Shown one piece after another: positions 54,743 through 60,188 of a stretch of 64,000 nt of DNA (position 1 is the first letter of the stretch; each line of letters opens with the position of its first letter). The notes beneath the pieces were generated by a model. It saw only the letters and a list, made by a program, of their open reading frames with translations. It was not told the DNA's origin and made no database searches. The stretch lies in NCBI RefSeq assembly GCF_000331735.1, contig NC_020126.1, positions 6,699,501 through 6,763,500 on the forward strand, given 5' to 3'. Origin of the DNA: Myxococcus stipitatus DSM 14675 (GTDB taxonomy: Bacteria; Myxococcota; Myxococcia; Myxococcales; Myxococcaceae). The position numbers and the translations under genes were made by a program.

Positions 54743-55810
54743 TCAGATGGCGTAGTCCCCCACGAAGACGGTGGCGGTGCGCACATCCGCGTGGACCGCA
54801 TCGCCCTCGGTGACGCCCAGCTCATCGAACTCCGTGCGAGGCACCTGGACGGTGACTTCGTCTCCGGAAGGCAGGCGCAGGAGCACCTTGACGAAGCCGC
54901 CCACGGACTTCAGCCGCTCCACCGTGCCCAGCACCGGCGAGGGCCCCCGTCCCCCCACCACCATCCGAGCCAGCTTCACGTCATGCGGCCGCACGAAGGC
55001 ATGCACGGCCTCGCCCTCACGCGCGGCCGGAGGCACCGCCAGCGCGAGCGAGCCCACCGCCACCCGGCCCTCCTGGACATGGCCTCGCAGGATGTTCGCC
55101 CCGCCGATGAACGACGCGACGAAGGGCGACGCGGGCCGGTCGTAGATGTCCTCCGGCGAGCCCGACTGCGCCACCCGCCCATCGCTCATCACCACGACGT
55201 GCTGCGAAATCTCCAGCGCCTCCTGCTGGTCATGCGTCACCAGCAGCGTCGTCAGCCCCGTGCTCTCGTGCAGCGCATGGAGCCACTCCCGCAGTTCCTC
55301 CCGCACGCGGGTGTCGAGCGCCCCGAAGGGCTCATCCAGCAACAACACCCGAGGACGGATGGCCAGCGCCCGAGCGAAGGCCACCCGCTGACGCTGCCCA
55401 CCGGAGAGCTGCCCGGGATGACGCCCGCCCAGCGCTTCGAGTTGGACCAGGCGCAGCATCTCGTCCACGCGAGCCTCCACTTCCTCGCGAGGCTGCTTCC
55501 GCACATTGAGGCCGAACGCGATGTTCTCCCGCACCGTCATGTGCCGGAACAGGGCGTAGCTCTGGAACACGACGCCCACGTTGCGCTGCTGCACGGGCAG
55601 GGACGTACAGTCCACGCCGTCGATGAGGACCCGACCCACGTCGGGTACCTCCAGTCCCGCGATGAGACGCAGGAGCGTGGACTTGCCCGCGCCGGACGGC
55701 CCCAACAGGGAGGTGATGGCGCCCTTGGGCGCGTGGAAGGAGACATCCGCGACGGCGGGACTGCCGCCCGGGGAGAAACGCCGGGTGAGTTGCTCGACGA
55801 TGATGCTCAT
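54743..55810 (-). CDS. cysA: Sulfate/thiosulfate ABC transporter ATP-binding protein
   Basis: 355 residues. Walker A LLGPSGAGKSTLLRL, signature LSGGQRQRVAFARA, Walker B VLLLDEPFGALDTRV, switch LVTHDQQEALEIS, then a C-terminal TOBE domain (from about 240). ATG at 55810 overlaps the cysW stop by 4 bases. Powers CysT/CysW sulfate uptake. Last gene of the operon. Confidence 0.95.
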   Translation of the reverse strand: MSIIVEQLTRRFSPGGSPAVADVSFHAPKGAITSLLGPSGAGKSTLLRLIAGLEVPDVGRVLIDGVDCTSLPVQQRNVGVVFQSYALFRHMTVRENIAFGLNVRKQPREEVEARVDEMLRLVQLEALGGRHPGQLSGGQRQRVAFARALAIRPRVLLLDEPFGALDTRVREELREWLHALHESTGLTTLLVTHDQQEALEISQHVVVMSDGRVAQSGSPEDIYDRPASPFVASFIGGANILRGHVQEGRVAVGSLALAVPPAAREGEAVHAFVRPHDVKLARMVVGGRGPSPVLGTVERLKSVGGFVKVLLRLPSGDEVTVQVPRTEFDELGVTEGDAVHADVRTATVFVGDYAI

Positions 55811-56667
55811 GACACCTCGCTCCTCCACTCCACGTACTTCTTCAGCACGAGCGTCACGAGCGCCAGCAGCGTGAGCAGAGACGCCACGGCGAACGCACCC
55901 GCGAAATCGTATTCGTTGTAGAGAATCTCCGCGTGCAGCGGCAGCGTCGTGGTGACACCCCGCACGTGCCCGGACACCACGGAGACGGCGCCAAACTCTC
56001 CCATCGCTCGCGCGTTGCAGAGAATGACGCCATAGAGAACACCCCACTTCACCTTCGGCAGCGTGACGCGGAAGAAGGTGCGCCAGCCTCCAGCCCCCAA
56101 CGTCAGCGCCGCCTCCTCCTCGTCACTGCCCTGCGTCTGCATCACCGGCAGCACCTCCCGGGCGACGAACGGGAAGGTGATGAACACCGTCGCCAGGACG
56201 ATGCCCGGCACCGCGAAGATGACCTGGAGGTCGTGCTCGGCCAGGAACGGCCCCAGCCAACCCTGCCGCCCGAAGAGCAGCACGAAGATGAGCCCCGCGA
56301 TGACGGGCGACACGCTGAAGGGCAGGTCGATGAGCGTCAGCAGCAGCGAGCGCCCCCTGAAGCGGAACCGCGCCAGGAGCCACGCGGCGGCCAGGCCGAA
56401 GACCAGGTTGAGGGGCACCGCGATGGCCGCCGCCGTCAGCGTGAGGAAGATGGCGGAGCGGGCCTCGGGTTCGACGATGGCCGCCAGGTACGCCTCCCAG
56501 CCCTTCTGGAAGGCGAAGGTGAAGACGGCGACCAGCGGAACGAAGAGAAAGAGCGCCAGGAAGCCCAGCGCCAGGAGGATGAGCGACCAGCGGACCCAGG
56601 CCGAGCCTTCCAAGGTCCGCGCGTTGCGCCGCGACATCCAGATAGAGGGGGCGAGCATGTCCGTCAC
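55807..56667 (-). CDS. cysW: Sulfate ABC transporter permease CysW
   Basis: 286 residues, six helices. EAA-like loop TLGAGGWRTFFRVTLPKVKWGVLYGVILCNARAMGEFGAV (parts) and FSVSPVIAGLIFVLLFGRQGW are CysW features. Start is GTG at 56667, overlapping the cysT stop (GTGA). Confidence 0.94.
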   Translation of the reverse strand: MTDMLAPSIWMSRRNARTLEGSAWVRWSLILLALGFLALFLFVPLVAVFTFAFQKGWEAYLAAIVEPEARSAIFLTLTAAAIAVPLNLVFGLAAAWLLARFRFRGRSLLLTLIDLPFSVSPVIAGLIFVLLFGRQGWLGPFLAEHDLQVIFAVPGIVLATVFITFPFVAREVLPVMQTQGSDEEEAALTLGAGGWRTFFRVTLPKVKWGVLYGVILCNARAMGEFGAVSVVSGHVRGVTTTLPLHAEILYNEYDFAGAFAVASLLTLLALVTLVLKKYVEWRSEVS

Positions 56668-57506
56668 GCTCCAGGCCGGGCTTCCAGCCGGCGGTGGCTC
56701 CAGCGCTGGAGCACGTTGACGACGAGCAGGAGGAGGAACGACGCCACCAGCATCACGACCGCGATGGCCGTGGCGCCCGCGTAGTCGTACTGCTCCAGCT
56801 TGGTGACGATGAGCAGCGGAACAATCTCCGTGCGCAGCGGCATGTTGCCGGAGATGAAGACCACGGAGCCGTACTCACCCAGCGCCCGGGCGAACGCCAG
56901 GGTGAAGCCGCTCAGCAGCGCGGGGAGAATCGCCGGGAACAACACCCGCGTGAAGGTCTGCGTGGGGGTGGCGCCGAGCGTCGCCGCGGCCTCCTCCACG
57001 TCCGCGTCGATGTCCTCCAGGACGGGTTGCACCGTGCGCACCACGAAGGGCAACCCGATGAAGGTCAGCGCCACCGCCACGCCCACCGAGGAGTAGGCCA
57101 CCTTGAAGCCCAGCGCCTCCAGGTACTGGCCATACCAACCCTTCGAGGAGAACAGCGTCGTGAGCGTCAGCCCCGCCACCGCGGTGGGCAGCGCGAAGGG
57201 CAGGTCCACCAGCGACTCCACGAAGGAGCGGCCCGGAAAGCGGTAGCGCACGAGCACCCACGCCACCAGGAGCCCGAAGACAACGTTGGCCAGCGCCGCC
57301 GCGAACGACGCGCCGAAGCTGAGCCGGTACGCCGCGAGCGCCCGAGGCGCCGTCACCGTCTCCCAGAACTGCGGCCACGTCAGGGAGAACGTCTTGAGGA
57401 AGAGGCTGGAGAGCGGGATGAGGACGAGCAGCCCGACATAGGTCCAGGTGAAGCCCAGGGACAGCTTGAAGCCGGGCAGGACGTGCCTGCGAGCGTGGGT
57501 GGCCAT
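56664..57506 (-). CDS. cysT: Sulfate ABC transporter permease CysT (CysU)
   Basis: 280 residues, six helices. SLVDLPFALPTAVAGLTLTTLF and the coupling loop TLGATPTQTFTRVLFPAILPALLSGFTLAFARALGEYGSVVFISGNMP (parts) are CysT features. Three bases separate it from the binding-protein gene. Partner of CysW. Confidence 0.94.
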   Translation of the reverse strand: MATHARRHVLPGFKLSLGFTWTYVGLLVLIPLSSLFLKTFSLTWPQFWETVTAPRALAAYRLSFGASFAAALANVVFGLLVAWVLVRYRFPGRSFVESLVDLPFALPTAVAGLTLTTLFSSKGWYGQYLEALGFKVAYSSVGVAVALTFIGLPFVVRTVQPVLEDIDADVEEAAATLGATPTQTFTRVLFPAILPALLSGFTLAFARALGEYGSVVFISGNMPLRTEIVPLLIVTKLEQYDYAGATAIAVVMLVASFLLLLVVNVLQRWSHRRLEARPGA

Positions 57507-57509
57507 GGC

Positions 57510-58538
57510 TCAGCGCGCCTGCGGGACGTAAATGGAGTCGAACACCCCACCGTCGTCGAAGTGCGCCGACTGGGCCTTGCGCCAGCCGCCGAACACCTCG
57601 TCGATGGTGAAGAGCGTCAGCTTCGGGAAGCGCGCCCCTTCCTTCCGGGCGACCTCCTCCGAGCGCGGGCGGTAGTGGTGCTTGGCCACGAGCCGCTGTC
57701 CCTCCTCCGAGTAGAGGAACTGGAGGTAGGCCTCCGCCACCGCGCGGGTGCCTCGCTTGTCCACGTTGCGGTCCACGACGGTGACGGGCGGTTCGGCGAC
57801 GATGCTCGACGACGGGACGACGATCTCGAACCGCTCCTTGCCCACCTCGTCCGTCAGCAGGAAGGCCTCGTTCTCCCAGGCGATGAGCACATCTCCCAGG
57901 CCACGCTCGGCGAACGTGGTGGTGGCGCCTCGTGCGCCCGAGTCCAGCACGGGCACGTGGCGGAACAGCGAGTCCACGAAGGCGCGCGCGCTCTGCTCGG
58001 TGCCTCCTGGCTTGCGCAGCGCATGGCCCCAGGCCGCCAGGTAGTTCCACCGCGCGCCTCCGGAGGTCTTGGGGTTGGGGGTGATGACGGCGACTCCGTC
58101 GCGCACCAGGTCATCCCAGTCGCGGATGCCCTTGGGGTTCCCCTTGCGCACGACGAAGACGATGGTGGAGGTGTACGGCGCGCTGTTGTTCGCCAGCCGC
58201 TTCTGCCAGCCGTCGGGAATCAGCGACGCCTTGTCGTGGAGCATGTCCACGTCGTAGGCGAGCGCCAGCGTGACGACGTCCGCGTCGAGCCCGTCGATGA
58301 CGGCCCGCGCCTGCTTGCCGGAGCCGCCGTGGGACTGCTTGATGGAGACCTTCTGCTGGTGCGTGGCCTCCCAGTGCTTCGAGAAGGCCGCGTTGACGTC
58401 CACGTACAACTCCCGCGTGGGGTCATACGAGACGTTGAGCAGCGTGACGGCGCCGGGGGCGGAGCCTTCGCTCCCGGACTTCGAGCACCCCACGAAGGCG
58501 ACCAGGATGAGCGGGAACAGCCAGGAATGGGTACGCAT
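57510..58538 (-). CDS. Sulfate-binding lipoprotein (Sbp/CysP)
   Basis: 342 residues with lipobox AFVGC, so membrane-anchored. Sulfate site segments [47 protein letters not shown] and [20 protein letters not shown] are typical. ATG at 58538 is preferred over a GTG five codons upstream. It delivers sulfate to CysT/W. Confidence 0.95.
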
Positions 58539-58549
58539 GGACGGGCCTT

Positions 58550-59854
58550 TCACCAGCTCACCTGGAAGCGGGACATGACGACGGACTCGGGGATGCGGTC
58601 TCCGTCGACGGCGCCCCCCTTGAACGTCGTGTGGTCATACGTGGCGGCGACGCGGACGTTGTTGTTGAGGTACCAGTTGGCGACGGCGCCCCACCCCTTC
58701 GCATGGCGCGCGGAGACCGTCGGGTCCGCGAAGACAGGGAACGCCTCCGGGTCGACGTCGAGCTCCGTGTAGCGACCTCCAATCTCCACCGCGCCCCACC
58801 CTCCCGACGCGGCGCCGAACGGGTCCGTGGGCTTGATGCCCTCGTAGGCCGCCTTGCCTCCGAAGAGCACCCAGGTCGCCGTGGCCTGCCACGCCTCGAA
58901 GCGCAGGCGCGCGTGCTGCTCGCCCAGGTTCACCTCCTGCGTGGAGTTCACGTACTCGGCCAGCGCGCCCAGCGGCCCCGCATAGAAGTAGCCCTGCGGT
59001 GAGATGCGGGTGTGCTCGCCATGGGCCATCACCGTCTGCCCCGCCCCCGCTCCCGTGCGGAAGATGAAGAACGTCTGCTGCCCCATCGTGCGCAGCGGCG
59101 CCTCACCCGTCGTGGACGCCGAACCGAACTGGTTGCCGCGCGAGGCGGCGACGCCCAACCCCAACCCCGAGAGCAGGTGCAGGTCCGTGGCGCGGAACGG
59201 ATGGGCGAACACGCGCGCCGCCAGGTCGAAGCTGTCGTCGATGTTGCTGTCGGCGTTCGCGCCATCCGCGGTGCCGTTGAAGCCGCCCACCGCGTAGGCC
59301 AGCACCCCGCCCAACAGCTCCCCGTGCACCATCACGCCCACGTCGCGGTTGGGCACCAGGTCCGTGGGCAACGCGCGCTCGATGAACGGGACGTTGAGCG
59401 CGGACTGATTGCGCTCCAGCCCCACGGGGGGACGGAACCGGCCCACCCGCACGCGCACCTCCTTGCGCGGTCGGAACTCCAGGTACGCATCCCAGAGCGG
59501 CGGAACGTTCGGCGCGAAGTCCGCCATGAGTCGGAAGTCGAACACATGGAAGAGCGTCCCCTCCAAGACGGGCCGCGCGCGCCGCATGAGGAACGTGGTG
59601 GCGCCGGAGCGGTCCGCCTTGCTCTCGAAGAACCGGCCGTCCATCTGGACGTAGCCGCGCAGCTTCAGCAGGAACGCCTTGTCGGCGGAGGCGATGGAGA
59701 AGCCCTCCGGGGTCGCCTTGATGACGGCGCCCTCCGAGGAGCTCGGTGTCTGGGTTTGAGGGGGAGGTGTCTGGGCCGCGGCGAGCGGCGCCAGTAGCAG
59801 CACCAGCCCCGCGGCGAAGGTGGAGAGTCGATGATGCGGTGAGGGACGTGCCAT
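58550..59854 (-). CDS. OprP/OprO-like outer membrane porin of the sulfate operon
   Basis: 434 residues. Signal peptide ([19 protein letters not shown]), Gln/Pro linker, then a beta-barrel with [54 protein letters not shown] and the terminal FQVSW. It resembles the phosphate porin encoded at 29716 in layout but heads a sulfate-uptake operon, so oxyanion selectivity for sulfate is inferred. GAGG lies six bases before the ATG. First structural gene after the Cys-leader attenuator. Confidence 0.86.
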
Positions 59855-59915
59855 GCGGTTCCTCGACTGCGAGAGGGGCGCGATGGACGTGGTTTCGGTA
59901 CCTCAGAAAGCCGAA

Positions 59916-59942
59916 AGCCCACCTCCTCGCGGATGGTGGGCT
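59916..59942 (-). terminator. Attenuator terminator in the sulfate-operon leader
   Basis: RNA hairpin AGCCCACC - 11-base loop - GGTGGGCT, followed by TTCGGCTTTCTG. It lies about 25 bases after the leader-peptide stop and 60 bases before the porin start, inside the leader. Its 5' arm (GCCCACC) is also complementary to GGTGGGC within the leader peptide gene, so two exclusive structures are possible. Confidence 0.72.
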
Positions 59943-59967
59943 CTTCGAACCAGCTCTTCCCGGGGTT

Positions 59968-60045
59968 TCAGGCCACGGGTCGACAGGCGCCCACCGCTGG
60001 TGCGTCACAGCAGCAACAGGCGTGGGTGGTCGGTCGGAGGCTCAT
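59968..60045 (-). CDS. Cysteine leader peptide (25 residues, four consecutive Cys)
   Basis: Starts MSLRPTTHA, then Cys10-Cys13 (codons TGT TGC TGC TGT) and a fifth Cys at residue 21; stop TGA. It has no Shine-Dalgarno and begins about six bases after the predicted transcription start, so it may be leaderless. It is followed by a terminator hairpin and by sulfate transport genes. Stalling at the Cys codons when Cys-tRNA is scarce would free the antiterminator. Comparable poly-Cys attenuators are known in mycobacteria; none in myxobacteria is known to me. Confidence 0.8.
   Translation of the reverse strand: MSLRPTTHACCCCDAPAVGACRPVA
59989..59995 (-). promoter_or_regulatory. Antiterminator segment within the Cys leader gene
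   Basis: RNA GGTGGGC, spanning codons 17-19 (GCG GTG GGC). It is identical to the 3' arm of the terminator and complementary to its 5' arm (RNA GCCCACC, 59935-59941), so pairing with it blocks termination. A shorter complement CCCAC (RNA at about 60022-60027) lies just before the Cys codons and could sequester it when ribosomes move on. Confidence 0.6.
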
Positions 60046-60057
60046 GAAAGTGGCTGC

Positions 60058-60086
60058 ACGATGCACGGGCCCTTCTTGCTTGTCAA
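60058..60086 (-). promoter_or_regulatory. Promoter of the sulfate operon leader
   Basis: Minus strand: perfect TTGACA (60081-60086), 17-base spacer, CATCGT (60058-60063). Predicted start about 60051, just before the leader-peptide ATG at 60045. Immediately after the stop of the cysteine-desulfurase-like gene, so the operon has its own promoter. Confidence 0.7.
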
Positions 60087-60188
60087 CGCACCCCCACCTG
60101 GGACGCTCCCTCGCCTCCCTCATCTGCCCCAAGGCCCAGATGGGTGATGACAGTCGCACACCCTCTGCCACCCGCGTCGTCGTCATCC

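Follow-up and report, generated by a model that had tools for sequence, protein, structure and literature searches.

We identified a leader upstream of a sulfate transport operon of Myxococcus stipitatus DSM 14675 that is very probably a ribosome-mediated transcription attenuator, sensing charged tRNA-Cys and controlling sulfate import. The leader lies on the minus strand of a genome consisting of a single contig of 10,350,586 bases, and positions given below, unless a locus is named, are those of the window, the stretch of 64,000 nucleotides that was analyzed. Its parts and their conservation, reading frame, spacing and covariation could be established directly from the genome sequences compared. 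The reading as a Cys-tRNA attenuator is well supported by these comparative data: the combination of elements in the leader far exceeds what chance would be expected to give, and its conservation in 37 genomes is the decisive evidence.

The leader begins with a perfect -35 box, TTGACA (60086-60081, minus strand, read directly), which is invariant in the 33 aligned leaders, the alignment being anchored on this motif. A weak, probable -10 box, CATCGT (60063-60058, minus strand), lies within a conserved GGGCATCGTG block, and was assigned from its 17-nt spacing and from the identity of the block (75% vs 43% for the spacer). The preliminary description had read a consensus promoter here, which holds for the -35 box but not for the -10 box, where only three of six positions match TATAAT; the sigma-70 scan made no call at the leader promoter. 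Counting from the first base of the -35 box, the start codon of the leader ORF (60045-60043) is 41 nt away, and it is located 12 nt past the -10 box, a spacing that places it about 5 nt from a normal +1 and predicts a 5' UTR of a few nt only. The distance from the start of TTGACA to the ATG is 39-41 nt in all 37 sulfate leaders, which fits the near-leaderless initiation proposed earlier.

The leader ORF (59968..60045, minus strand; MSLRPTTHACCCCDAPAVGACRPVA) encodes a 25-codon peptide with orthologues in 37 genomes. It contains four Cys control codons (codons 10-13; 60007..60018, minus strand), a fifth Cys at codon 21, and a TGA stop codon (59970-59968, minus strand). The control codons form segment 1, which can pair with segment 2, the GGTGGGC sequence of codons 17-19 (59995-59989, minus strand). 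Segment 2 is the putative 5' arm of the antiterminator, and its GGTGGG is invariant in the 33 aligned leaders. Downstream, segment 3 (AGCCCACC; 59942-59935, minus strand), read directly and backed by alignment and covariation, and segment 4 (GGTGGGCT; 59923-59916, minus strand) are the 5' and 3' arms of a terminator-shaped hairpin with an 8-bp stem and an 11-nt loop, followed by a U-rich tail, TTTCGGCTTTC, that extends to 59906, before the porin ATG at 59854. The leader therefore carries a three-way repeat, GGTGGGC / GCCCACC / GGTGGGC, in which the copy within the ORF is identical to the 3' arm of the terminator and complementary to its 5' arm. These elements and complementarities agree with the preliminary description, which missed that the stop codon lies inside a conserved antiterminator hairpin and that the leader is one of a family. 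A generic terminator scan misses the leader hairpin because its T run is interrupted; the same kind of tail is found on myxobacterial terminators after csp genes. The leader thus combines a short ORF with a repeated codon, a terminator before the first structural gene, and an antiterminator that excludes it.

Five minus-strand genes follow the leader. The first structural gene encodes a porin of the Porin_O_P family (58550..59854; Pfam PF07396, E 8e-26). It is followed by genes for a sulfate ABC transporter substrate-binding protein (57510..58553; TIGR00971 and NF008022, far over cut-off), the sulfate permeases CysT (56664..57506; TIGR02139, 409.6 bits vs a cut-off of 246) and CysW (55807..56667; TIGR02140, 402 bits vs a cut-off of 329), and a CysA-type ATPase with a CysA_C_terminal domain (54743..56047; TIGR00968, 338 bits, just below the cut-off of 343). 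The true start of the latter is probably near 55810, since the model match begins at residue 80. By these curated models, porin-sbp-cysT-cysW-cysA is a sulfate ABC transporter operon, as had been supposed. The porin gene is missing from the operons of some relatives; the leader is located 5' of the porin gene where this exists, and otherwise directly 5' of the binding-protein gene (e.g., L055-L058 and L076-L084).

Within the family, 48 genomes encode an orthologue of the sulfate-binding protein, with one further weak fragment, and we compared 10-kb loci around these genes to define the distribution of the leader. It was found in 37 of the 48 genomes bearing the gene, and not in the remaining 11. 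Within the leader, sequence identity is 100% at the -35 box (the anchor), 96% in segment 2 and 79% in the terminator, vs 31% in the 60 nt upstream of the -35 box and 34% after the terminator, values close to those of unrelated DNA. A genome scan for the Cys run alone was uninformative, as an ATG with three TGY triplets after it, whatever the frame, gave 375 matches, vs 197 for the reversed pattern. The three-way repeat together with a short in-frame ORF carrying at least two Cys codons shortly upstream was found once in the window and in none of 60 Markov-simulated windows. In some genera (L063, L064, L065, and L067-L070), a sulfite-reductase-like gene stands immediately in front of the sulfate-binding gene, and no leader of the sulfate type was found at these loci; L063 also carries a flavodoxin-type reductase gene.

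The alignment of relatives also bears out the mutually exclusive folds that had been predicted. Pairing between segments 2 and 3 is possible in 33 of 33 leaders, and the terminator contains a compensated pair (A1 columns 166-178) that is CG in 16 leaders, UA in 15 and UG in 2. A hairpin of the form CCCG-GG...TGA...CC-CGGG (59959..59979, minus strand) surrounds the stop codon. It was recovered from the 33 leaders by RNAalifold without a supplied structure, and four of its pairs are altered on both sides (e.g., AU 15 / GC 9 / CG 8). The covariation score of the terminator and stop-codon hairpin was reached by none of 500 shuffles, and sliding the pairing destroys it. Counting every type of leader, a stem surrounds the stop codon in 68 of 68. 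Based on these alignments, the stop-codon hairpin belongs to the antiterminator, enclosed by the predicted 2:3 helix. An alternative hairpin of segment 2 with codons 20-23 was not adopted as functional, because one of its pairs is broken in 8 of 33 leaders. In Rfam 15, the leader region of the window has matches only below the gathering score, and six related loci have none at their leaders.

From this arrangement we infer stalling, termination and a response of the leader to cysteine as follows. A ribosome would initiate at the near-5'-terminal ATG and, if Cys-tRNA were scarce, would pause on the Cys codons, leaving GGUGGGC free to pair with GCCCACC around the intact stop-codon hairpin. The resulting antiterminator would block the terminator and allow transcription of porin-sbp-cysT-cysW-cysA. 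With ample Cys-tRNA, the ribosome would get to the stop codon and open the stop-codon hairpin; segment 2 would then be recaptured by the Cys-codon stretch, and GCCCACC would pair with the downstream GGUGGGC, leading to termination. The last control codon lies 14 nt 5' of segment 2 in sulfate leaders from Myxococcus, and the same holds for haem-type and porin leaders from other genera; in the deeper sulfate relatives the distance is 13-17 nt. A distance of 14 nt is just past the edge of a ribosome paused on the last control codon.

RNA folding supports selection of the fold by ribosome position in the window leader, but not in all leaders. For the nascent RNA of the window leader, with segment 4 unmade, the probability of 2:3 pairing is 0.95-1.0 when a ribosome masks the Cys codons and 0.03 when it is at the stop codon, where 1:2 pairing reaches 0.91. 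Among the 37 sulfate leaders, the difference in energy between antiterminator and terminator moves in favour of the terminator from stall to stop, on average by 5.5 kcal/mol; the shift is reversed in 5 of the 37 and near zero in a few others. A clear OFF state was not seen in the equilibrium nascent folds of leaders from the smaller-genome Myxococcus clade, nor in the folds of many of the Met leaders described below. Once segment 4 is included, the terminator is favoured at equilibrium in nearly every state, even when the ribosome is stalled, and the ON state must consequently be kinetic. For the same reason, the equilibrium fold of the full leader was non-discriminating as a test, and nascent RNA was used instead. 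The short upstream complement of segment 2 proposed in the preliminary description does exist in this genome, being mainly the Cys-codon stretch itself (UGUUGCUGCUG), which pairs with segment 2 by 12 bp including G-U pairs; it is less secure across species, where the 1:2 helix shows no convincing covariation.

A covariance model of the sulfate leaders identified a second element in many genomes, and a second model was built including that element. This metX-type element was found in essentially every genome of the genus, as well as in the 16 genomes from genus g6 (partial in one), which are without the sulfate-binding gene. In M. stipitatus, it comprises a near-leaderless Met/Cys leader ORF (G000:C1:8428327-8428481, plus strand; locus L151), with relatives at L152-L158, L164-L166, L169, L170, L197-L219, L222, L223 and L226. 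The Met/Cys leaders share the GGTGGGC / GCCCACC / GGTGGGC architecture, have Met/Cys-rich peptides just before GGTGGGC (MKSLFALCMCRMSMSGGLPPARVG, MTSLLAMRRMSMTGGLPPARVG, MFVTSAMCMCSMPVPGGPLPAAVG and MNSVAFASCRMCMPSGGLPPATG), and place the ATG 37-39 nt from TTGAC. In all 39 loci checked, the leader shares the strand of metX or metY-metX and is located about 170-300 nt upstream of these genes. The assignment of MetY as an O-acetylhomoserine sulfhydrylase is firm (660 bits vs a cut-off of 495), and the MetX match is clear yet below the equivalog cut-off, so that metX here denotes a metX-like gene by family and by its neighbour metY. By the same logic as above, the Met leader would report the supply of Met (and Cys) to metYX; in many Met leaders, the last Met codon is too near segment 2 for a control codon. 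A search of the M. stipitatus genome for the three-way repeat returned only the sulfate and metX elements, besides six matches that look like chance. Of the weak partial matches to the covariance models (E ~1e-3 to 1e-6), those inspected proved for the most part to be ordinary terminators lying behind csp and tRNA genes, and were rejected.

Cys leaders were also found before other genes. A leader of the same design, with an SCCC run, precedes a conserved 31 amino acid hydrophobic ORF (MRRGIISEILRDFIFQTLLIGLLLWALGAAR) and haem/B12-type ABC transporter genes in three loci (L159:3073-3230, L160:3067-3224, and L161:11532-11689). Other Cys leaders precede another Porin_O_P gene (L162-L163), a sulfate ABC operon from a different family within the order (L167), and DUF4395 genes from two separate families (L168:4546-4711 and L193:2021-2192). 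A literature search on DUF4395 gave nothing useful. In L193, all three repeats are changed together, to GGCGGGC / GCCCGCC / GGCGGGC, which is expected if the three repeats pair in turn.

Taken together, the sulfate and metX leaders look like a small family of sulfur-amino-acid switches in the sequences compared. We further propose, with moderate confidence, that Myxococcota have a class of near-leaderless attenuators in which the sensor codons are interchangeable and the stop codon is buried within the hairpin of the antiterminator. This class would include Cys leaders before sulfate, porin, haem-type ABC and DUF4395 genes and Met+Cys leaders before metX or metYX, the latter being the first leader-peptide attenuator to sense elongator Met-tRNA. 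To our knowledge, Met is not among the amino acids known for leader-peptide attenuation, and no Met leader-peptide attenuator was found described among open-licence literature.

Leaderless poly-Cys sORFs in mycobacteria were reportedly described by Canestrari et al. in 2020 (cited in PMC13236596 and PMC9094748). These sORFs have a Cys run, are found before sulfur genes, respond to Cys, and are described as translation attenuators (PMC13236596); candidate Cys leaders of mycobacteria have no conserved terminator hairpin (PMC1262725). The myxobacterial leaders resemble them in being short, near-leaderless ORFs with a Cys run before sulfur genes, so that control of a mycobacterial type could be envisaged here too, in which the poly-Cys ORF would govern Rho-dependent termination or the translation of downstream genes, and the hairpin would be incidental. 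We regard this as unlikely, even though the near-leaderless start is common to both: every one of the 33 aligned leaders retains the terminator with its compensatory pair and can pair the 5' arm of the terminator with segment 2, and the position of the hairpin is constant whichever gene comes next. Because the myxobacterial leaders, from a different phylum, keep a terminator and an antiterminator, we do not claim membership in the mycobacterial poly-Cys class.

The conserved peptide tail AxAVGACxPxA within Myxococcus might instead suggest that the Cys-rich peptide has a function of its own as a small protein, binding metals or thiols, and that the hairpin is the ordinary 3' terminator of its gene. 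This is very improbable, since the conserved tail coincides with the RNA segment GGTGGGC. In five deeper relatives (L071, L073, L075, L080, and L082), GGTGGG is in another reading frame but the frame of the Cys codons is kept, and the tail ..AVGACxPxA becomes ..RRWALVRRQRGG or ..GWVLARRKPEG, a change that alters the peptide wholly and leaves GGTGGG unchanged. Moreover, the N-terminal residues vary freely, the genes that follow Cys leaders are mostly related to sulfur or transport, and before metX the Cys codons give way to Met codons. Judging from these comparisons, the leader codons and the leader RNA are selected separately.

In all 37 sulfate leaders there are 2-5 in-frame Cys codons, and the distance from the ATG to the first Cys codon of the run is 24, 27, 30 or 33 nt, always in frame. 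It is equally improbable that the TGY run is conserved only for pairing with GGUGGG, as a structured RNA or protein-binding terminator, since, despite constant wobble bases within Myxococcus and the 12-bp pairing with segment 2, nucleotides outside the Myxococcus clade differ and Cys is kept (SCCC, CRC, VCC, CCCRC and CACRCRC), in frame with the ATG, while 1:2 covariation is weak and Met takes the place of Cys before metX.

As an attenuator, the Cys leader would be of a known type. Classical trp and his attenuators have control codons and mutually exclusive antiterminator and terminator folds, and the location of their stop codon lets the position of the ribosome decide between these folds. 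The myxobacterial leader has such control codons and folds and a stop codon where ribosome position would decide likewise, but differs in being near-leaderless, in placing the stop codon inside the internal hairpin of the antiterminator, and in responding, as predicted, to sulfur amino acids. Besides those of mycobacteria, Cys leaders are already known in Rhodobacterales, where the uORFC-8-2 motif upstream of cysS has tandem Cys codons and a terminator, and ribosome-mediated transcription attenuation has been proposed (PMC8632094). That motif differs in having two Cys codons, in preceding cysS and in occurring in alphaproteobacteria, and the passage describing it mentions neither a near-leaderless start nor a hairpin at the stop codon, nor any version with Met codons (PMC8632094). 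In Geobacter-type deltaproteobacteria, an S-box (SAM-I) riboswitch lies upstream of metX, where a SAM aptamer controls termination (PMC545781). By analogy, metX would be regulated at the RNA level by termination in both groups, although the scanned myxobacterial metX loci (L151 and L170) carry a Met/Cys leader ORF and have no Rfam match.

If correct, this interpretation would mean that sulfur amino acids in myxobacteria are served by an RNA-level regulon rather than by known riboswitches, and that a Cys-responsive leader like the mycobacterial ones exists in a distant phylum, where it is combined with a true terminator. More surprising still, and the most novel element, would be the Met version: Met would be sensed by internal codons of an ORF that itself starts with Met, making the charging of initiator vs elongator tRNA directly testable. 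The stop-codon hairpin would provide a simple physical rule, by which a ribosome at the stop codon opens the antiterminator, and which is testable by point mutations.

Finally, we observed two kinds of inverted repeat near the leader promoters. In the window, a short repeat, CATCTG...CAGATG (60119-60142), separates the upstream class-V aminotransferase gene from the leader promoter, and is possibly the terminator of the aminotransferase gene itself. In genera other than Myxococcus, a 14-bp palindrome of the form TCCGYTATARCGGA is located just upstream of the -35 box of sulfate leaders (L066:3757-3770, L072:3756-3769, L074:6253-6266, L075:3684-3697, L080:6294-6307, L082:6291-6304, and L085:6187-6200); it is probably an operator for some regulator. 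A similar palindromic site overlaps the -10 box in L162/L163.
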